Source: Lacipirellula limnantheis (lineage in GTDB: Bacteria > Planctomycetota > Planctomycetia > Pirellulales > Lacipirellulaceae). Taken from it: DNA of 64,000 bases. Positions 40,423-51,444 of the stretch are shown piece by piece. How positions within the stretch are numbered: the first letter of the stretch is position 1; the number at the start of each line of letters is the position of its first letter. The notes under the pieces are model-generated. The model was not told where the DNA came from. It saw nothing but the letters and a program-made list of their open reading frames with translations, and did not search any database. The stretch is taken from positions 1,326,856 through 1,390,855 of the forward strand of contig NZ_CP036339.1 in assembly GCF_007746075.1 (NCBI RefSeq). The letters run 5' to 3'. Made by a program: the position numbers and the translations under genes.

Positions 40423-40441
40423 CCCCGGACTCCGCCCGGGG
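40423..40441. repeat. Intergenic hairpin, CCCCGG-type, first of a pair
   Basis: CCCCGG and CCGGGG flank ACTCCGC, with the CTCCGC core seen in other members at 46467 and 47951. It lies seven bases after the stop of the small acidic gene. Confidence 0.45.
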
Positions 40442-40477: not shown

Positions 40478-40500
40478 AACCCCGGGCGAAGCCCGGGGTT
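40478..40500 (+). repeat. Intergenic hairpin, CCCGGGC-type, second of a pair
   Basis: AACCCCGGGC (40478-40487) pairs perfectly with GCCCGGGGTT (40491-40500) around GAA. It may terminate the small acidic gene. Similar pairs lie at 46458-46528 and 47942-48022. Confidence 0.6.
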
Positions 40501-42673: not shown

Positions 42674-43345
42674 ATGCTCCTTTTGGAAAACGTCCGCAAA
42701 GCCTACATCGAGCCGAGCGGCGAACCGCTGCCGATTCTCGACGTCGAGCGGTTTGAAATCGCCGCCGGCGAGCAGGTCGTCCTCCGCGGACGTAGCGGCT
42801 GCGGCAAGACGACGCTCCTAAACTGCATCGCCGGCCTGACGACCGTCGACAGCGGCGCCATCACCGTCAACGGCCGCGACGTGACCAAGCTCCCCGAAGC
42901 GACCCGCGACCGTTTCCGGGCCACGTACATCGGCTTCGTGTTCCAGACGTTCAACCTGCTGCCAGCGTTTACGGCCCTCGAAAACGTCATGCTGGGGATG
43001 ACCTTCACGGGATCGAGGCCCGACGCCGTGCGGGCCACCCAGCTTCTTACCGACGTGGGCCTCGGTCATCGCCTCACTCACAAGCCGCGCGCCCTCAGCG
43101 TCGGCGAACAGCAACGCGTCGCCGTCGCTCGCGCGCTGGCCAATCGCCCCGTACTGTTGCTGGCCGACGAACCGACCGCCAACGTCGACCCCGCGCACCA
43201 GCAGCACGTCATCGACCTCCTCCGTTCCGCTTGTGAGCGTGAAAACATCGCCATGCTGCTGGTCACCCATTCGCCCGAGGTGTCGCAGCAGTTCATCCGC
43301 GTCGAGGAATTGGAACGAGTCAACCGCGCGGCGAGGGTGGCATGA
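42674..43345 (+). CDS. ABC transporter ATP-binding protein, MacB/LolD type
   Basis: This 223-residue ATPase has Walker A GRSGCGKTT at residues 39-47, a Q-loop VFQTFNLLPAFTALEN, signature LSVGEQQRVAVARAL, Walker B LLLADEPT and switch His in LVTHSPEV. The signature reads LSVGE rather than the usual LSGGE. VFQTFNLLPAFTALENV is characteristic of the MacB/LolD subgroup that powers mechanotransmission with FtsX-type permeases. The ATG at 42674 gives a normal N-terminus; 32 codons upstream are not conserved. Its stop overlaps the permease start by four bases (ATGA), so the two are translationally coupled. Confidence 0.95.
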   Translation: MLLLENVRKAYIEPSGEPLPILDVERFEIAAGEQVVLRGRSGCGKTTLLNCIAGLTTVDSGAITVNGRDVTKLPEATRDRFRATYIGFVFQTFNLLPAFTALENVMLGMTFTGSRPDAVRATQLLTDVGLGHRLTHKPRALSVGEQQRVAVARALANRPVLLLADEPTANVDPAHQQHVIDLLRSACERENIAMLLVTHSPEVSQQFIRVEELERVNRAARVA

Positions 43346-44667
43346 GCTATTTCAAGATCGCCTGGCGAAACATGCAGGAGCGGGCGCTGGCGAGCTCGCT
43401 CACCGGACTTTCGATGGCGCTTGGCGTCGCCCTCATGGTGCTCGTCCTGGTCATCCACGAAGTTGTCGTCGCCCAGCTCTCCAACGACGCCCAGGGTTAC
43501 AATTTCATCGTGGCAGGGAAGGGGAGTCCCTACGAAATTGTTCTGACGACCGTCTTTCACGTCGGCAAGCCGCTCTACCCGATTCCCTGGAAGTACTACC
43601 AAAAGTTCACCGACGGCGAGTTCGCTCCGTTCACCGATTTGGCCGTCCCCATCTGCCTCGGCGACAGTTACCCGACTGCCGACGGCCAACTTTTTCGCGT
43701 CGTCGGCACGACCGCCGACATGTTCAACGAGCTCTCCTATGGGGCCGATTCGCAAGGAAATGAAAAGCGGTACGAGTTCTCCTCGGGCCGCAACTTTCGC
43801 TCGAATCACTTCTTCGAGGCCGTGATCGGCTCCGTTGCCGCGAATCGAACGGGTCTGAAAGTCGGCGACCGTTTTCAACCGTCGCACGGCATCAGTGCGG
43901 AAGGCAAGAAGCACAACGAGTTTGAAGTCGTCGGCGTCCTCGCCCCCACCGGCACGGCGAACGATCGGGCGCTCTTTGTGAATGTCGAAGGCTTCCTGCT
44001 CCTCGACGGCCACGCCCGCGCGCCGAAGCCAGGCGCCGAATCGGAGCCTCCGATCGTCGTCGACGATGCGCCGCCGGGGCAGCCCGCCCCTCTGCCGATC
44101 TCGCAGCGCGAGGTCACGTCGATCCTTGTTCGATGCAATCCGGAGGAGATGATGGCGCCCATGCAAATCGACATGGGCGTCAACAAGGGCGAAGACCTCA
44201 CGGCGCAAGCCGTCGCCCCGGTCAGCGTCGTCGAACGACTTCAAGCCAGCTTCCTCGCCCCGATGCGGCTCATCCTGCTGGTCCTCACGGTGATGATCGT
44301 GATCGTCGCCGGCATCAGCATTCTGGTCAGCATCTACAACTCGATGAGCGAGCGCAGCCACGACATCGCCGTGATGCGGGCCCTCGGCGCCAGTCGCAAC
44401 GCGGTGATGGCCGTCATCCTAGTCGAGTCGATCCTGCTATCGATCCTCGGCGGACTCGCGGGCCTGGTCCTGGGCCACGGCGTGCTGGCGCTGGCGAGTC
44501 CCGTCGTCGAGTACTACACCGGCGTCACCGTGCGGGCCTGGAGCTTCACCTGGCAAGAGACGCTGCTGGTTCCCGGCCTGGTCGCGTTCGCGGCGCTGGT
44601 CGGCTTTCTTCCAGCTCTCTCCGCCTACCGTACCGACGTCGCGAAAACCCTTGGAGGGGCCAGATAG
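43342..44667 (+). CDS. FtsX/MacB-type ABC permease
   Basis: This 441-residue inner-membrane permease begins SYFKIAWRNMQERALASSLTGLSMALGVALMVLVLVIHEV, the N-terminal helix of MacB-type permeases. A periplasmic domain spans about 45-300 (YNFIVAGKGSPYEIVLTTVFH, CLGDSYPTADGQLFRVVGTT). Three C-terminal helices follow: LRLILLVLTVMIVIVAGISILVSIYNSM, the AVMRALGASRNAVMAVILVESILLSI coupling segment, and LLVPGLVAFAALVGFLPAL. It works with the ATPase it overlaps. The substrate is not told by sequence; a lipoprotein or metal-related envelope function is inferred from the genes downstream. Confidence 0.93.
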   Translation: MSYFKIAWRNMQERALASSLTGLSMALGVALMVLVLVIHEVVVAQLSNDAQGYNFIVAGKGSPYEIVLTTVFHVGKPLYPIPWKYYQKFTDGEFAPFTDLAVPICLGDSYPTADGQLFRVVGTTADMFNELSYGADSQGNEKRYEFSSGRNFRSNHFFEAVIGSVAANRTGLKVGDRFQPSHGISAEGKKHNEFEVVGVLAPTGTANDRALFVNVEGFLLLDGHARAPKPGAESEPPIVVDDAPPGQPAPLPISQREVTSILVRCNPEEMMAPMQIDMGVNKGEDLTAQAVAPVSVVERLQASFLAPMRLILLVLTVMIVIVAGISILVSIYNSMSERSHDIAVMRALGASRNAVMAVILVESILLSILGGLAGLVLGHGVLALASPVVEYYTGVTVRAWSFTWQETLLVPGLVAFAALVGFLPALSAYRTDVAKTLGGAR

Positions 44668-44770
44668 CCGCACCTTCCAGGTACGGTCTCCCGGCCAGGA
44701 TGGCCGGGCGATGCAGCGGGCGGATACAATAAATGGCTGGCTTTGCCCGGGTCGTTGGGAGAATGGACAC

Positions 44771-46450
44771 ATGATAATTCGTTCAAAAATTCAAGCGATC
44801 GCGGTTGGTTTGCTCGCGGCGCTCATGCTATTCACTGACATGGCGGTCGCGATCCAGCGCGCCGCCGCCTGCCCCTTCTGCAGCGCCGCCATGGCGACCC
44901 TAGGCCAAGAGATCGCCGGCGCCGACGGAGCGGTGATTGCCGAGTTGATCAAGCCGATGCCCGCCGCTGACCCGGCTGTCGGCCCCGTCGACCCGACGCA
45001 GGCTGCCGCCACCTTCCGCATCGTGAAGGTCCTCCGCGGCGAAGAGAAGCTCGCCGGCGCCAAGGAGATCGACGTCGTCTACTTCGGCGAAGACGCCCCC
45101 GACAAGAAGTTTCTCATTACGGGCATCGCGGCGATCACTCCCGACAAGATCGAGTGGACCACGCCGGTCCCCCTCGCGCCTCGCGCGGTCGAGTACGTCG
45201 AAAAGCTCCCGACGCTCCCCGAGACCGGCGTTGAACGGATCGCCTTCTTCCAGGAATACCTGGAAGACGAAGATCCGCTCCTCGCGCAAGACGCCTACGA
45301 CGAGTTCGCCCGGGCGCCCTACGCCGACGTCATCGCCATTGGCCCGCGGATGCACCGCGACCGACTGCTCCAGTGGATCAAAGACCCGTCGGTAGGTCCC
45401 TCTGGCCGCCGGCTCTACCTCACGATGCTCGGCATCTGCGGCCAGCCTGACGACGTGACGATGATTGAGGAATTCCTCAACTACGATTACCAAATCACCA
45501 AGCCCGGCATCATCGCCGCCATCGGCACGACGGGCGTCCTCGGGACCCCGATTGGCACGGGTCTGATCGACGAAGCGATCCACGCCGATGAGCGTCGCAA
45601 GAAGGAAAGCCTCGACGCACTGATCGCCTGCTACATCAAGCTCAAAGGCCCCAGCGCCTTGGAATTGGTGAACGCCAAATTCCTCGGCAACCCGACCGTC
45701 GAGTACAAGCATCTCCACTCGGCGATCATGGCCCTCCGCTTCCATGGCGAGGAGACCGACATCATCCCGCGCGAGAAGTTGCTCGATTCGATGCGGCTCG
45801 CCCTCGACCACAAGGAGTTCGCCGACCAGGTGATCCCCGATCTCACCCGCTGGGAAGATTGGGAGGTGATGCCGCGACTGGTGAAAATGTTCAAGGATGC
45901 GCCGGCAGACGACTGGATCCGTCAGCCGGTGGCGTCTTATGTGCTCGTTGCCGCCGAGCAACCGGGGGAAGTCGGCGAGCAAGCCAAGGCGTCGATCGCC
46001 GAACTGGAATCGATCGACGCCGATACGGTCGAACGGGCCCGCAGCCTCTCGGCCTTCAGTTTCCTTGCCAAAGCCGCCGCAGCCGACGCGGCGACGCCTG
46101 GAGCAACGCCCGCGGCCCCCGTCAGTGCGAACCAAAATACGGCCGACGCCAAGGCGGCCACACCGGCGGAAGCAGAAAAATCCCCCGCGGCAGCCGCGGG
46201 GAAGACGGCCGAAGACGCCCTCGTGCCGGCCGTGAAGGAGCCGATGTCCCTGTCGCCGGCGTCGAGCCAGGCCAAAGCGAACATCCAGCCGCCGACGGCG
46301 CCGGTTGCGCCGGTCGCCACGACCGACCTCCCCGTACCGAGCAAATTGAAGCTGATCGGCGTACCACTACTAGCAGCCGTTGTACTACTGGCGATCTTCG
46401 CCGTGCTGCTGCGAGGGACTGACCCCCGCTCCGCCGAAGAACGCCCGTAG
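44771..46450 (+). CDS. Exported membrane-anchored protein with CPFC motif and helical repeats
   Basis: This 559-residue protein has a signal segment ending AVAIQR and then ACPFCSAAMATLGQEIAGADG, so CxxC is at Cys34 and Cys37 right after the signal. Residues 45-130 are beta-rich (AVIAELIKPMP, TFRIVKVLRGEEKL). Residues 160-450 are helical, HEAT-like (DVTMIEEFLNYDYQI, KESLDALIACYIKLKGPSALELV, AIMALRFHGEETD). A Pro/Ala-rich linker and a C-terminal membrane helix (LIGVPLLAAVVLLAIFAVLL) end it. The start at 44771 follows from the signal. It lies 104 bases after the ABC permease on the same strand. It may act as the periplasmic partner of that transporter. Confidence 0.75.
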   Translation: MIIRSKIQAIAVGLLAALMLFTDMAVAIQRAAACPFCSAAMATLGQEIAGADGAVIAELIKPMPAADPAVGPVDPTQAAATFRIVKVLRGEEKLAGAKEIDVVYFGEDAPDKKFLITGIAAITPDKIEWTTPVPLAPRAVEYVEKLPTLPETGVERIAFFQEYLEDEDPLLAQDAYDEFARAPYADVIAIGPRMHRDRLLQWIKDPSVGPSGRRLYLTMLGICGQPDDVTMIEEFLNYDYQITKPGIIAAIGTTGVLGTPIGTGLIDEAIHADERRKKESLDALIACYIKLKGPSALELVNAKFLGNPTVEYKHLHSAIMALRFHGEETDIIPREKLLDSMRLALDHKEFADQVIPDLTRWEDWEVMPRLVKMFKDAPADDWIRQPVASYVLVAAEQPGEVGEQAKASIAELESIDADTVERARSLSAFSFLAKAAAADAATPGATPAAPVSANQNTADAKAATPAEAEKSPAAAAGKTAEDALVPAVKEPMSLSPASSQAKANIQPPTAPVAPVATTDLPVPSKLKLIGVPLLAAVVLLAIFAVLLRGTDPRSAEERP

Positions 46451-46457
46451 CATTGCA

Positions 46458-46478
46458 GCCCCTGGCTCCGCCAGGGGC
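46458..46478. repeat. Intergenic hairpin, GCCCCTGGC family
   Basis: GCCCCTGGC and GCCAGGGGC form a perfect nine-base-pair stem around TCC, seven bases after the stop of the CPFC gene. Confidence 0.65.
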
Positions 46479-46509
46479 GAACGACCAAGAAGCTTTCCTT
46501 CCACTCCGA

Positions 46510-46528
46510 CCACCGGCAACGCCGGTGG
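46510..46528. repeat. Second intergenic hairpin
   Basis: CCACCGGC and GCCGGTGG form a perfect eight-base-pair stem around AAC, 17 bases before the DUF3299-type membrane gene. The two hairpins sit in tandem in one 95-base gap. Confidence 0.6.
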
Positions 46529-46545
46529 CTTGTACCACAAATCCC

Positions 46546-47271
46546 ATGTCCACCGCCGAAGCCGTGTCCGCCAGCCGTCCCGCCATCCGCGGCGAAGAGT
46601 TCGAATACCGCCCGATGAACACCGGCGCGATCGCGTCGCTGGTGTTCGGGCTCCTATCGGCGTTGATTTTCTTCGCCGGCCGCGATGGCTTCCAGAACTC
46701 GCTCCTGCTGACGCCGCTGCCGCTGATCGGCATCGCGCTTGGCGTACGCGCCATGGCGGCAATGCGCGCCAATCCCGACCAATTTACCGGCGGCGCGATG
46801 GCGAAGATCGGCACGGGGCTTTCGATCTTCTGTCTGATCTTCGGCTTAGCCTATTCCGGCTACGTCTATGCGACCGAAGTCCCCGCGGGGTACGCCCGCA
46901 CCTCGTTCTTCGACTTGCAGCCTGACGACATCGACCTTCGCGGCGGGCATGCGATCCCCCCGGATATTGCCGCCCTCGACGGGAAAAAGGTCTTCATTAA
47001 GGGCTACATCCGCCCCGACTCGACCAACAACGGCTACCGCCAAAACATCAGCCAGTTCCTGCTCGTCCGCGATAGCAACAACTGCTGTTTCGGAGATCTG
47101 AGCACCGTGAAATACTTCGACCAGATGCTGGTGCAGATGAAGGGCAACGATCGGGTCGATTACTCGCCGGGGCTGCTTCGAATGGGAGGCATCCTCCGCA
47201 TCTTCCCGCAACATGCCGGCGACGGCGCTCCCGGTCCCGCATTCGTCCTTGAAGCCGATTACTCGAAATGA
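46546..47271 (+). CDS. Membrane protein with DUF4190-like N-part and DUF3299-type C-domain
   Basis: This 241-residue protein has three membrane segments at about 28-45, 54-72 and 86-108, forming a DUF4190-like unit (GAIASLVFGLLSALIFF, then IGIALGVRAMAAM). The periplasmic C-domain (115-241) reads LDGKKVFIKGYIRPDS, FLLVRDSNNCCFGDLS and VDYSPGLLRMGGILRIF. The CC pair (180-181) inside RDxxxCCFG is the signature of DUF3299 proteins, which are found beside ABC-transporter genes in other Gram-negative bacteria. Two neighbouring cysteines could bind metal or form a disulfide. Its stop overlaps the next gene by four bases. The ATG at 46546 was chosen by the membrane layout. Confidence 0.82.
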   Translation: MSTAEAVSASRPAIRGEEFEYRPMNTGAIASLVFGLLSALIFFAGRDGFQNSLLLTPLPLIGIALGVRAMAAMRANPDQFTGGAMAKIGTGLSIFCLIFGLAYSGYVYATEVPAGYARTSFFDLQPDDIDLRGGHAIPPDIAALDGKKVFIKGYIRPDSTNNGYRQNISQFLLVRDSNNCCFGDLSTVKYFDQMLVQMKGNDRVDYSPGLLRMGGILRIFPQHAGDGAPGPAFVLEADYSK

Positions 47272-47927
47272 CGTCTCGCCCACTGCAATGGATGGCATGG
47301 AGCGCCTTGATCGTCGCCGCAGCCGGCTGCGACGCGGCGACATCGGCCCGCGAATCGTCCACCGGCGAGCGGGCGGCGTCAGCCGCTCGGCCACCTGCGT
47401 ACGAGAGGGTTCCGCCATCGTCAGCGACGTCGCCGCAACCTCAGCCCACGGTCTCCGCGGAGCCCCCCGCTCCAGCGAGCAACGCACCGGCTCCGTCAGC
47501 GTCTGAGCCGTCGCGCACTGTCGAGGTCAAACTCCCCGATCCCGACTCCTCCGGCTACATCGAAACCACCTTCGATGACCTGAAGTTCGAGATGACGAAG
47601 ACCGAGCTTTTCGATCGGGCGATGCTCACCCCGAAGGTGAACGCCCTGATGGATAAGAAGATCCGTATCCGCGGCTACATCTTTCCGACGCTCCGCAAAA
47701 CGGGCCTCAACCGCATCGTGCTGGTCCGGGACAATATGGAATGCTGCTTCGGCCCTGGCGCCGCCCTGTTCGACTGCGTCCTCGTGACGATGGCCCCCGG
47801 CAAGACGGCCGAGTACTCGATCCGCCCCGTCGCGGTCGAAGGGACGATTCGCCTCGAAGAACTGCAAGGCGGCCCCGACGGCCGCCCGCTCGCGATTTAC
47901 CAGATGGTCGGCGACAAGGTCGAGTAA
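47268..47927 (+). CDS. DUF3299-type lipoprotein
   Basis: This 219-residue protein has a signal ending VAAAGC (lipobox, Cys21), a Pro/Ala/Ser-rich linker to about 80 and a DUF3299 domain from about 95 (FDDLKFEMTKTELF, KKIRIRGYIFPTLRKTG, IVLVRDNMECCFGPGAALFDC). The Cys-Cys pair (159-160) in RDNMECCFG corresponds to the pair in the preceding gene, so these are tandem paralogues. An extra Cys170 lies nearby. The ATGA overlap with the upstream gene couples their translation. As a lipoprotein it would sit on the periplasmic face next to the other. Function unknown; metal or thiol handling is inferred. Confidence 0.82.
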   Translation: MTSRPLQWMAWSALIVAAAGCDAATSARESSTGERAASAARPPAYERVPPSSATSPQPQPTVSAEPPAPASNAPAPSASEPSRTVEVKLPDPDSSGYIETTFDDLKFEMTKTELFDRAMLTPKVNALMDKKIRIRGYIFPTLRKTGLNRIVLVRDNMECCFGPGAALFDCVLVTMAPGKTAEYSIRPVAVEGTIRLEELQGGPDGRPLAIYQMVGDKVE

Positions 47928-47941
47928 TCTATCCCTTTGCA

Positions 47942-47962
47942 GCCCCCGGCTCCGCCGGGGGG
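47942..47962. repeat. Intergenic hairpin, CCCCCGGC member
   Basis: CCCCCGGC and GCCGGGGG form an eight-base-pair stem around TCC, 15 bases after the lipoprotein stop. Same design as 46458-46478. Confidence 0.6.
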
Positions 47963-48003
47963 TAGGTCGCCATACCGGTCGGCGTCGCCCCGCGTCACGC
48001 AAC

Positions 48004-48022
48004 CCCCTGGCGGAGCCAGGGG
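48004..48022. repeat. Intergenic hairpin, reversed CCCCTGGC member
   Basis: CCCCTGGC and GCCAGGGG form a perfect eight-base-pair stem around GGA, the reverse complement of the TCC-loop version. It is the second hairpin of the 122-base gap. Confidence 0.65.
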
Positions 48023-48049
48023 CTGAAAAGCCAAACCCCGAGCATCCTC

Positions 48050-48541
48050 ATGCCGCGCAACGCCCTCCTCTTCCTCCTCGCCGCCATCTCCCTCGCGGCC
48101 GTCGCCTACGCCGCGGAACCAACGGCCAAACCCGCAACCGACCCGGAAGAAAAAGAAGTCCGGGGGCTCCTTGATCGCTACTTCGCCAGCTGGTCGAACC
48201 AGGACCTGATGCGCTACGGCCAATGTTTCATGCCGCAGGCGGCTATTCAGATGATTGACCCCGAGCGCGGCCTGATCACGATGCCGCTCGGCCCGTTCCT
48301 GCAGAGCCAACAGCAAGCTCACCGCGCGTCGAAGAATCGCATGACGGAAGCGGCCGAGTCGATGAAGATCCGCTTCGATGCCGACCTGGCCCACGCGCTG
48401 GTTTACTGGAAGCTCGTCGACGGCGACCGCCTGGAATATGGCTACGACCACTTCACCCTAATGAAGTCGGACGGCAAATGGCGCATCGCGAACCTGGTCT
48501 TTTACGCCGTCCCTCCGCCCAAAGAGGCCGCTGAAAAATAA
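48050..48541 (+). CDS. Exported NTF2/SnoaL-like protein
   Basis: This 163-residue protein has a signal peptide (ALLFLLAAISLAAVAYAAE) and then an NTF2-like cone-shaped fold: VRGLLDRYFASWSNQDLMRYGQCF, ALVYWKLVDGD and a closing DHFTLMKSDGKWRIANLVFYAVP. That final strand pattern is typical of SnoaL/DUF4440-type domains with one ligand pocket. No catalytic set is clear. It lies downstream of the DUF3299 pair and may complete the unit. A binding or scaffolding role is possible. Confidence 0.75.
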   Translation: MPRNALLFLLAAISLAAVAYAAEPTAKPATDPEEKEVRGLLDRYFASWSNQDLMRYGQCFMPQAAIQMIDPERGLITMPLGPFLQSQQQAHRASKNRMTEAAESMKIRFDADLAHALVYWKLVDGDRLEYGYDHFTLMKSDGKWRIANLVFYAVPPPKEAAEK

Positions 48542-48592: not shown

Positions 48593-49471
48593 CTACTTCG
48601 CCCGCTTGCCGCGCTGGCTGAAGACAATCAGCGTGAGATCATCCGGCTTGTGCGGCTGCCCTTCGAGCGCCGTCTGCATCCGTTGCATCGCGACGCCGGC
48701 AATCTTGGCGGCCGCGCTCGCTGCTGTGCCGTTTTTGAGGAACCCGTTGATCTCGTCCATTAGCAGGTTGTCGAGCACGCCATCGCTCGCCACGAGCAGC
48801 CCATCGCGAGTCGAGACCTTCCGGACGCTGCCAACCTCAACGTGCATCGCCTCAGAACCAAGGTAGTTCGAAACGAGATGCCGCTCTTCGTGATCGAGAG
48901 CTTCCTGCTCTTCGAGCATTCCCGCTTCCATGGCGTAGCCCACCGGCGAATGCGACGTGGTGAGCAGCTTCACCTTGCCGCGGCCGCCGACCATCACGAT
49001 CTGGGCGTCGCCAATGTGGTAGGGGCGGGCCTCGCCGTTTTCGATCTGGACGATTGCCAGCGTGGCGCCGGCGCCGTTCTTCAGTTCGATGATTTGGCGA
49101 TTCGCCTCCTCGATGCCGTCGAGGATTGCCGTGCGGAGCGACTCTCCCGCCGCCGCCGCGGTGGCGATGTGGTTCGTCAAGCTATCGATCGCGATGCGGG
49201 CCGCTTGCTCGCCATTGGCCATCCCGCCGCAGCCGTCGGCGACGATCAGCACCGCGGCGTTCTCGCCCGCGGCGACGACGGCTGCGGCGTCTTGATTGGC
49301 AGTCGTCTTCTCGGGTTTACGCGCCGACAACACCGCCACCGATCCGCCCGCCAGCTCGAACACTTCCGGTTCGAGCATGTCGACGTTCAGGTAGACCCGC
49401 GATTCACAGGTAGTGAGTTGCTGGCAGTCCATCGTGGTCGTTTGTTTCAGCGCGCCGAAAACTTGGCGCAT
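48593..49471 (-). CDS. PP2C-family Ser/Thr protein phosphatase
   Basis: This 292-residue metal-dependent phosphatase has the PP2C motif series: NQDAAAVVA, VLIVADGCGGMANGEQAAR (DGxGG metal site), GATLAIVQIENG, YHIGDAQIVMVGG, LLVASDGVLDNLL (SDG) and KPDDLTLIVFSQ (DD metal site). It is cytosolic with no membrane segment. Internal ATGs at 49432 and near 49378 are alternative starts. It follows the Ser/Thr kinase gene on the same strand with a 75-base gap, making a likely kinase-phosphatase pair. It may reverse that kinase's phosphorylation. Confidence 0.88.
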   Translation of the reverse strand: MRQVFGALKQTTTMDCQQLTTCESRVYLNVDMLEPEVFELAGGSVAVLSARKPEKTTANQDAAAVVAAGENAAVLIVADGCGGMANGEQAARIAIDSLTNHIATAAAAGESLRTAILDGIEEANRQIIELKNGAGATLAIVQIENGEARPYHIGDAQIVMVGGRGKVKLLTTSHSPVGYAMEAGMLEEQEALDHEERHLVSNYLGSEAMHVEVGSVRKVSTRDGLLVASDGVLDNLLMDEINGFLKNGTAASAAAKIAGVAMQRMQTALEGQPHKPDDLTLIVFSQRGKRAK

Positions 49472-49546: not shown

Positions 49547-50947
49547 TCATTGTCCGCCGAGCCGTTTGCAACACCAAGGACAGTGGCTCCAGTAGCCCGG
49601 AACGACGCCCCAACCGCAGTGGCCGCAGTTGCGATTCGACTCAGGGATTTTCCACTTCTTCCGGACTTTCCGATGGCACCAGCAGCAGTAGCGCATGAAC
49701 GGCATCAATAATTTTCGCGTGCACTTCGGATTCTGGCACCGGCCGGTATAGCGCTTGTCGGTGAATTTTCGCGTCGAGGTCGGCTCAAAGCCGGGGCCAT
49801 AGCACCAGGGGCAATACTCCCAGTCGAGCTTCATCCCCCGGAAGCACCGCGGACACTGTTGCGGGAAATCGGTTTGACCCTCGTGCGCCAGGCGCGTCTT
49901 GCCGCACCAGGGGCAACATTGCATGGGCTCCGACACCGGACCATTGCATGCGGGGCACTGGTGCTTGGCATCGAGCACTTTGCCGAATTCCTGTTGGAAT
50001 TGGCGGCGCTGAATGGTTTTCCAGTCGGCGCTGCGGCGAGAGCTTTTCGTCCCGCGCTTCGCCGCGGTTCGTCCCCCCTTGGGCGACTTGATCCGCGCGA
50101 ACGCCGCGAGCATCGCCTCAGCGTCGGCAAACCGCTTTTGCGGCGCCAGCTCCATCGCCTTCCGCATGAGCTCGATCAGTGCGGGATGGACTTTACGCTG
50201 GAGTTCGCGATACCCCGCCGGCGGCCACTCGAACGGATATTCGGGCAGCCGCCCGGCAAACATTCGATACAGGACCAGCCCCAACGCAAACACGTCGCTC
50301 CGAAACGACGGCCGTCCCATTGCCTGCTCGGGCGCCATGTAACCGAGCGTGCCGGCGCCGGAGGCTCGCAACGTTCGCTGCGCCACTTTGGCGACGCCAA
50401 AATCGGTGAGCCGCAGGCGGTTATCCTCGAACAGAATGAAGTTATCGGGCTTGATGTCGCAATGAATAATCTGTTGGCTATGAGCGTATGCGACCGCCGC
50501 CAGCATCTGCCGTGCGAAGTCGAGCGCCGTGTCGATCGACAGCCGGCGGCTAATCCGATCGTCAAGCGTCTCGATGCCAAGCGCGCTGACGATCACAAAG
50601 TATTCGTTGATGAACTGAGCCGTCTTCAGCGGCAAGATGTTCGGATGCTCCAGCTGCGCGACCATCCGAACTTCGCGGCGGAAGTCTTCCAGCGCCGATC
50701 CGGTAAGCAGGTGAGCGTACGGAATCTTGAGGGCGACGCGGATGCCCTCGATTTCATCCTTCGCCTGATAGACGGTCGCAAAGCCACCCTCGCCCAGCTT
50801 ACGCTCGATAACGTACTTGCCGAGCTTTTGCTTGGCTCGCAACAGCTTTCGCGGCCGGCGCTTGATCGACGTTCCCGGCGCCGCGGGCGGATGGGGGCGC
50901 GTGCGGTTCGTCGGCGGTTTGGGGCCAGGCTGGCTGTCAGGCGTCAT
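49547..50947 (-). CDS. Ser/Thr protein kinase with C-terminal zinc-ribbon array
   Basis: This 466-residue Hanks-type kinase has a Gly-rich loop GEGGFATVY (52-60), Lys74 in VALKIP, a catalytic loop HCDIKPDN (Asp164) where the usual HRD is replaced by HCD, DFG (182-184) and APE (205-207). The kinase core ends near 285. The tail (330-466) has CPAC, CPWC, CPRC, CPWC, CQNPKC, CCWC, CGHC and CPWC pairs, enough for about four zinc ribbons. There is no membrane segment, so it is cytosolic. The ATG at 50947 was chosen because upstream text is low-complexity. It is co-directional with PP2C. HCD kinases are active in some families; activity here is not certain. Confidence 0.88.
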   Translation of the reverse strand: MTPDSQPGPKPPTNRTRPHPPAAPGTSIKRRPRKLLRAKQKLGKYVIERKLGEGGFATVYQAKDEIEGIRVALKIPYAHLLTGSALEDFRREVRMVAQLEHPNILPLKTAQFINEYFVIVSALGIETLDDRISRRLSIDTALDFARQMLAAVAYAHSQQIIHCDIKPDNFILFEDNRLRLTDFGVAKVAQRTLRASGAGTLGYMAPEQAMGRPSFRSDVFALGLVLYRMFAGRLPEYPFEWPPAGYRELQRKVHPALIELMRKAMELAPQKRFADAEAMLAAFARIKSPKGGRTAAKRGTKSSRRSADWKTIQRRQFQQEFGKVLDAKHQCPACNGPVSEPMQCCPWCGKTRLAHEGQTDFPQQCPRCFRGMKLDWEYCPWCYGPGFEPTSTRKFTDKRYTGRCQNPKCTRKLLMPFMRYCCWCHRKVRKKWKIPESNRNCGHCGWGVVPGYWSHCPWCCKRLGGQ

Positions 50948-51444
50948 GTGCTGCGAATCTTGATGAAAACCAACGAAGCGCGCAACGCGGCGAAGCGCCT
51001 GCCTCGCCCGGAGTCTCCGCTCAAACCTACGCCATTCCCGGCCCGGTACCTTCAGTATCCGAACCGGCCGGCGGCTCGACAACAACCCGATCTTGCGGGC
51101 GCCACGGCCGCCTCGACGTAGAGCCCCTGTTATAGCGACAATAGGGCCCACGAGCCCTATGGACCAGAACGCCGTCAGGATGATCCGGGCGACGCAGGCG
51201 GCCACGGCGGCTGGCCTGGGCGACGACGGTCGATCCTCACGGAACGCCCAACGAGCATTCCTGGTGCGGCATTGGGGGCTCCCAGGCTCCAAGTTCCGAG
51301 GGACTGGCTGGTCGCGGCCTCTCGGCTGGCCAGCAGGGGGTAACTCAGCCTAAATTGCCAAGTGGCGGACCACCGTCAACGGAAGCACAGCTCGCGTCGT
51401 GCAAATCGAAACGCCGTATCCACTCCTGACCCCTGACGCCCGCC
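50948..51444. other. Intergenic before kinase and dehydrogenase genes
   Basis: About 500 bases shared by divergent promoters. The kinase frame stays open to 51292 with Arg-rich text. A perfect ATAGGGC/GCCCTAT seven-base-pair palindrome lies at 51141-51160, possibly an operator. No other gene is seen. Confidence 0.45.

Follow-up and report, generated by a model that had tools for sequence, protein, structure and literature searches.

Zrg, which comprises ZrgA, ZrgB, ZrgC, and ZrgE, is a Zur-regulated ATP-binding cassette (ABC) system of zinc starvation. Here we compare it with a locus of the planctomycete Lacipirellula limnantheis, located in a stretch of 64,000 nucleotides (NCBI RefSeq contig NZ_CP036339.1, positions 1,326,856 to 1,390,855; hereafter, the window) of a 6.83-Mb genome. 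Five co-directional genes on the plus strand of the window (42674-47927) encode an ATPase, a MacB-type permease, an exported protein with a Cys-Pro-Phe-Cys motif (the CPFC protein), and two proteins with a Cys-Cys pair (the CC proteins). As judged by sequence comparison, the closest known system is Zrg, encoded by zrgABCDE in Vibrio cholerae and by PA4063-PA4066 in Pseudomonas aeruginosa.

In V. cholerae, a znuA mutant depends on zrgA to grow and survive when the medium is zinc-deficient (PMC9820375). In P. aeruginosa, PA4065 mutants show an unchanged zinc content and a pyochelin-dependent accumulation of cobalt, although zinc limitation also impairs their growth if other routes of zinc uptake are lacking (PMC11481552); PA4063 has been put forward as a putative zinc chaperone or regulator (PMC8561739). 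Published work thus places the system in zinc starvation but conflicts on direction. No description of a planctomycete system made up of ATPase, permease, CPFC protein, and two CC proteins was found in the literature searched. An earlier reading of the sequence (the original prediction) likewise knew of no described planctomycete system of this exact composition, but there is a precedent in Zrg. Because ZrgA and the C-x-H motif of ZrgE are both absent, the planctomycete system is best classed as a new Zrg-related variant that is distinct from Zrg proper.

Gene content compared with Zrg

The open reading frames, the ATGA overlaps at 43342 and 47268, the CxxC after a signal, and the two CC proteins were found as the original prediction described them. 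The ATPase gene (42674-43345; this and the following features are on the plus strand unless noted) has a Pfam ABC_tran match (E 1e-33) and is linked to the permease gene in 30 of 40 loci from the order (Pirellulales). It overlaps the permease gene (43342-44667), whose product has Pfam FtsX and MacB_PCD domains. As in Zrg, the ATPase and the permease are separate proteins, homologous to ZrgC and ZrgB, respectively. Using hhalign, we aligned the permease along its length with three proteobacterial ZrgB sequences (Prob 100, E 2e-56), and an HG...H...D motif is common to both.

Also as in Zrg, DUF3299-family proteins are encoded downstream. The membrane-anchored CC protein (46546-47271; present in 38 of the 40 loci) combines a transmembrane (TM) part resembling DUF4190, matched under the Pfam cut-off, with a DUF3299-like domain; its gene overlaps that of the lipoprotein CC protein (47268-47927), and the two products are paralogues (33% over 119 amino acids [aa], E 2e-13). 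Many close homologues of the lipoprotein carry PF11736, and the lipoprotein itself scored 20.8 bits against a curated cut-off of 22. It matched a ZrgE/DUF3299 profile (Prob 88, E 3e-6), and its model, which contains an oligonucleotide/oligosaccharide-binding (OB) fold domain, had as its best structural match 4hsp, the solved DUF3299 protein PA4066 of P. aeruginosa and a homologue of ZrgE, with other OB folds scoring nearly as high. The lipobox Cys21 codon (47328-47330) is followed by Asp at +2; the Cys is conserved in 40 of 41 order sequences (the remaining one has a gap), and the +2 Asp occurs in 48 of 57 close homologues but in only 13 of 40 sequences across the order.

The two systems differ in their partner proteins. 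ZrgA (DUF2796, PF10986) had no match in the L. limnantheis genome at E 1e-3 and none in the locus, which has the CPFC protein instead. The planctomycete DUF3299 proteins come in two copies, both predicted to be membrane-tethered, and are of the CC type: the C-x-H-x-PPPP motif found in 4/4 canonical ZrgE sequences is absent from them, and CC followed by F/Y-G occurs instead. Based on annotation, the canonical operon on plasmids of Pseudomonas, Sulfitobacter, and Phaeobacter reads ZrgA (DUF2796)-ATPase-permease-DUF3299, with tandem DUF3299 genes in Sulfitobacter and a Fur gene in first position in Phaeobacter.

Conservation in the order and partner pairing among permease clades

The original prediction would have been undone by a loss of gene order or of the cysteine pairs in relatives, and we found both to be conserved. 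The lipoprotein CC protein had a match in 56 of 59 genomes (L. limnantheis included), and 55 of those had two matches; the single match in the other genome was weak and is probably the paralogue (G018). Among 40 loci drawn from these 56 genomes, 30 had the full order ATPase-permease-CPFC-CC-CC. In nine of the remaining ten genomes, a permease homologue is located elsewhere in the genome, so the parts are kept together even where the operon is split. The CC pair is invariant in the membrane CC protein (codons 47083-47088; 39/39) and in the lipoprotein (codons 47742-47747; 41/41), the window being included in both counts, and a third cysteine of the lipoprotein (Cys170, codon 47775-47777) is conserved in 38/41. 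Taking the best copy per locus, the CPFC motif (codons 44870-44881) reads CP[FY]C in 39/39. The system is real and present in nearly all relatives of the order that we examined. One member of the order (G051) has a permease (46% identity) and lacks the tandem CC pair; a single divergent DUF3299-type match lies elsewhere in its genome.

We then surveyed the phylum, covering 60 loci around permease homologues from 58 of 74 genomes with a permease. A DUF3299-type gene was located downstream of the permease on the same strand in 41 of these loci, and the 56 DUF3299-type open frames in the 60 loci comprised 50 with CC, five with C-x-C, and one with neither. A strongly His-rich lipoprotein was encoded directly after the permease in nine loci. 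A wider contig scan, from which 80 of 417 confirmed places were taken in, added Verrucomicrobiota, Acidobacteria, Poribacteria, and others. Across 199 genomes, the permease and a DUF3299-type protein were both present in 72, only one of them in 9, and neither in 118, counts that are not corrected for descent.

Among the 171 loci classified, none had two kinds of partner. The CPFC protein occurred only with CC-type DUF3299 proteins (41 loci) and ZrgA only with C-x-H DUF3299 proteins (7 loci). The His-rich lipoprotein never occurred with the C-x-H type (48 loci: 38 with CC, 5 with another type, and 5 with none in reach). In the other 75 loci, none of these three partners was within reach. We built a permease tree from 174 sequences, after dropping one outside 330-530 aa; at least six locus pairs probably represent the same genome (L048/L235, L071/L250, L134/L193, L137/L192, L145/L210, and L146/L199). 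The labelled types did not mix in the tree (CPFC, 42/42; His-rich lipoprotein, 47/47; ZrgA, 10/10), and the corresponding bipartitions of 54, 85, and 13 sequences had supports of 0.998, 0.954, and 0.72, respectively. Each of the three permease clades is thus strictly paired with its own partner.

The His-rich-lipoprotein variant, found in other Planctomycetota, Verrucomicrobiota, and others, has the same ATPase-permease core and, in most of its loci, the same CC-type DUF3299 protein; it differs in having the His-rich lipoprotein in place of the CPFC protein, with no detectable homology between the two. Members of this lipoprotein family follow the Zrg-like permease in several phyla (L112 6767-7318, L121 8253-8810, L136 4334-4858, and L147 2525-3007, among others), and in most of them the His stretch is followed by a motif of the H-G-G-x-L type; apart from one borderline ZrgA match, no fitting Pfam family was found for them. 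Short DUF3299-like proteins with C-E-C-G for CC are encoded near the permease on the opposite strand in L119 (2369-2806), L132 (1794-2318), and L134 (3655-4113).

The CPFC protein, a likely metal site of the permease, and flanking sequence

The CPFC protein (44771-46450) matched no Pfam family and, at E 0.1, no NCBIfam model. AlphaFold2 gave a model with a mean predicted local distance difference test (pLDDT) score of 82, in which the signal is followed by an N-terminal beta (OB/NTR-like) domain (residues 34-136), then a HEAT-like helical solenoid, and, beyond a linker of low confidence, a C-terminal helix interpretable as a TM segment. Foldseek matched the model to agrin NtA/TIMP-1 and to HEAT/ARM repeats; for the N-terminal domain, the matches to 1jb3, 7s7m, 3ma2, and 9sop had a probability of 1.00 and weak E values (7e-3 to 5e-2), and further fold-match rows were taken up by the solenoid.

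The motif begins at Cys34 and immediately follows a site resembling those of signal peptidase I: position -1 is Ala in 39/39, position -3 is A/V/L/G/T in 39/39, and A-x-A occurs in 29/39. One additional copy reads CSIC. If cleaved at this site, the mature protein would start with Cys-Pro-Phe-Cys. In TIMP, Cys is the first mature residue, a predicted likeness to the TIMP/NTR (netrin-like) OB domains that accompanies the fold matches. However, identity to these domains is 12-16%, and the CPFC protein has four cysteines in all and is fused to the solenoid and the TM helix. At E 1e-3, only one CPFC gene was found in the L. limnantheis genome. Several other families of the order have an additional, shorter CPFC paralogue encoded after the CC lipoprotein (L050 9704-10894, L052 10372-11520, L059 7114-8400, and L066 5314-6552).

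In the permease, His182 (codon 43885-43887) of the HG motif is His in 168 of the 174 sequences and Cys in the other 6, His191 (codon 43912-43914) is His in 169, and Asp208 is Asp in 173. On this pattern, His182, His191, and Asp208 are likely candidates for a metal site. His224 (codon 44011-44013) is conserved in 42/42 CPFC-type, 47/47 His-lipoprotein-type, and 68/75 unlabelled permeases; ZrgB has no equivalent, its His aligning two residues earlier. Cys105 (codon 43654-43656), in a P-x-C-L-G-D loop, is Cys in 28/28 order sequences (window included) and Ser in 3/3 ZrgB sequences; by type, it is Cys in 35/42 CPFC-type, 4/75 unlabelled, 0/47 His-lipoprotein-type, and 0/10 ZrgA-type permeases. The permease domains and, by family, a mechanotransmission core are shared with the type VII ABC systems MacAB-TolC, LolCDE, and FtsEX. 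The locus differs from those systems in its metal-ligand-like partners, and His182 is not present in four distant MacB/FtsX-type open frames from the same loci, a small control in which two frames overlap on one strand.

Downstream of the five genes, an NTF2-like gene (48050-48541; Pfam Lumazine_bd_2) had a homologue in only two of the 40 loci, both of the same genus (tblastn, E 1e-3), and a pair of palindromes resembling repetitive extragenic palindromes (REP) separates it from the lipoprotein gene. On both counts, this gene is a genus-level neighbour and not a member of the conserved system. The original prediction's view of a co-expressed-looking, cysteine-containing envelope system with a likely role in metal handling held up, and its inclusion of the NTF2-like gene did not. 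REP-like palindromes occur at five places in the window (40423-40441, 40480-40498, 46459-46477, 47943-47961, and 48004-48022), giving 7 matches on both strands against 0.06 expected. Genome-wide, we counted 96 matches with ≤1 mismatch and 0 for a reversed-pattern control; many are inverted pairs with a spacing of 60-61 bases, hence REPIN-like. On the minus strand, a PP2C phosphatase gene (48593-49471) adjoins a Ser/Thr protein kinase gene (49547-51292), whose product has several CxxC zinc-ribbon-like motifs in its C-terminal part.

Proposed function and alternative explanations

We consider it somewhat more likely than not that this is a Zrg-like ABC system that works without ZrgA and uses three cysteine-motif proteins, predicted to be located in the cell envelope, to collect periplasmic zinc and deliver it to the permease in an ATP-driven manner. 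Once released by signal peptidase I, the CPFC protein would offer its N-terminal Cys-Pro-Phe-Cys as a ligand set. The CC proteins, anchored at the membrane through TM helices or lipid, would carry the ion via CC (together with Cys170 in the lipoprotein) and pass it to His182, His191, His224, and Cys105, within or next to the MacB-like periplasmic domain of the permease. This domain would then be reshaped by ATP hydrolysis, as happens in other type VII (mechanotransmission) ABC proteins, leading to uptake or onward transfer of the ion. We infer the zinc, the direction, the ligand roles, and the ATP-driven handling from these comparisons, and the net effect would be zinc acquisition or retention, not efflux. 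A more detailed version is tentative: a TIMP-like CPFC protein, anchored at its far end, may capture zinc by its N-terminal amine and thiol, and two vicinal-cysteine OB-fold carriers may feed a type VII ABC mechanotransmitter, an all-cysteine relay having replaced a histidine-based partner as the permease lineage diverged.

A zinc setting is suggested by the neighbours of some relatives. Five of the 60 phylum loci, from three genera, contain ZnuA together with ZnuB and/or Fur genes (Pfam confirmed seven of these genes), and three of the five also have a linked DUF3299 gene. Several observations weigh against the zinc reading. The order-level loci had no recognisable Znu or Fur gene next to them, and the ZnuA and Fur genes of L. 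limnantheis are located elsewhere in its genome, where a single Fur-family protein was recognised (genome positions 5345153-5345512). The original prediction proposed checking for a zinc box upstream of 42674; we scanned 370 bases around the start of the ATPase gene with a consensus and found no zinc (Zur) box, although the consensus may not be that of this group. The TIMP-like fold call for the CPFC protein is weak, and cysteine ligands are also compatible with copper.

Copper is the subject of one alternative, in which the CC and CPxC ligands form a Cu(I) relay that brings copper to or from envelope proteins. The ligand motifs of all three partner proteins consist of cysteine, and permease Cys105 is nearly confined to the CPFC clade; however, the permease core retains the His/Asp set common to the zinc-linked ZrgB, and the ZnuA, ZnuB, and Fur neighbours (copper genes were not searched for specifically) point the other way, such that we regard this relay as improbable. 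Slightly less improbable, yet still unlikely, is export from the cell by a MacB-type machine, with a metal, either free or bound to a chelator, as the substrate, as proposed for PA4063-PA4066 with cobalt-pyochelin. Export would fit the MacB_PCD and FtsX domains, and PA4065 mutants are reported to accumulate both cobalt and pyochelin (PMC11481552). Nevertheless, a Pfam scan of 13 window genes found none of the MacA or TolC type (a genome-wide search was not made), and the partners resemble membrane-fixed metal-ligand proteins rather than adaptor tubes. The pyochelin-type thiazolinyl reductase TIGR01761 was over the cut-off in 0/59 relatives, with weak hits below it in 30, and cobalt-pyochelin is therefore unlikely as the common substrate. 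The label "ABC exporter" in the original prediction was too strong, given the homology of the permease to ZrgB, a protein that functions during zinc starvation and on whose direction published work disagrees.

We give very little credence to a thiol-redox or lipoprotein-extraction machine, in which CPFC would be a redox CxxC and the type VII core would move or reduce lipoproteins in a LolCDE-like manner. CPFC/CPYC does resemble glutaredoxin active sites (hmmsearch, E 0.16), and the best scores of the ATPase were to LolD models, yet these scores were far under the model cut-offs. Moreover, the fold matches listed for the CPFC model include no thioredoxin-like protein, and its motif immediately follows the signal, in an N-terminal part modelled with low confidence. 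The other two permease clades have His-rich partners.

The zinc-handling reading bears on a wider disagreement, in that published work assigns this MacB-type ABC core to zinc import in Vibrio and to cobalt-pyochelin export in Pseudomonas. With its occurrence in nearly all relatives examined from an order without a pyochelin-type reductase over the cut-off, its different ligand chemistry, and its strict partner swap per permease clade, the planctomycete system offers an independent case for deciding the dispute. It points to a likely metal site in the permease (His182, His191, and Asp208) that is directly testable, and it provides a common context for DUF3299, the CPFC protein, and the His-rich lipoprotein family.
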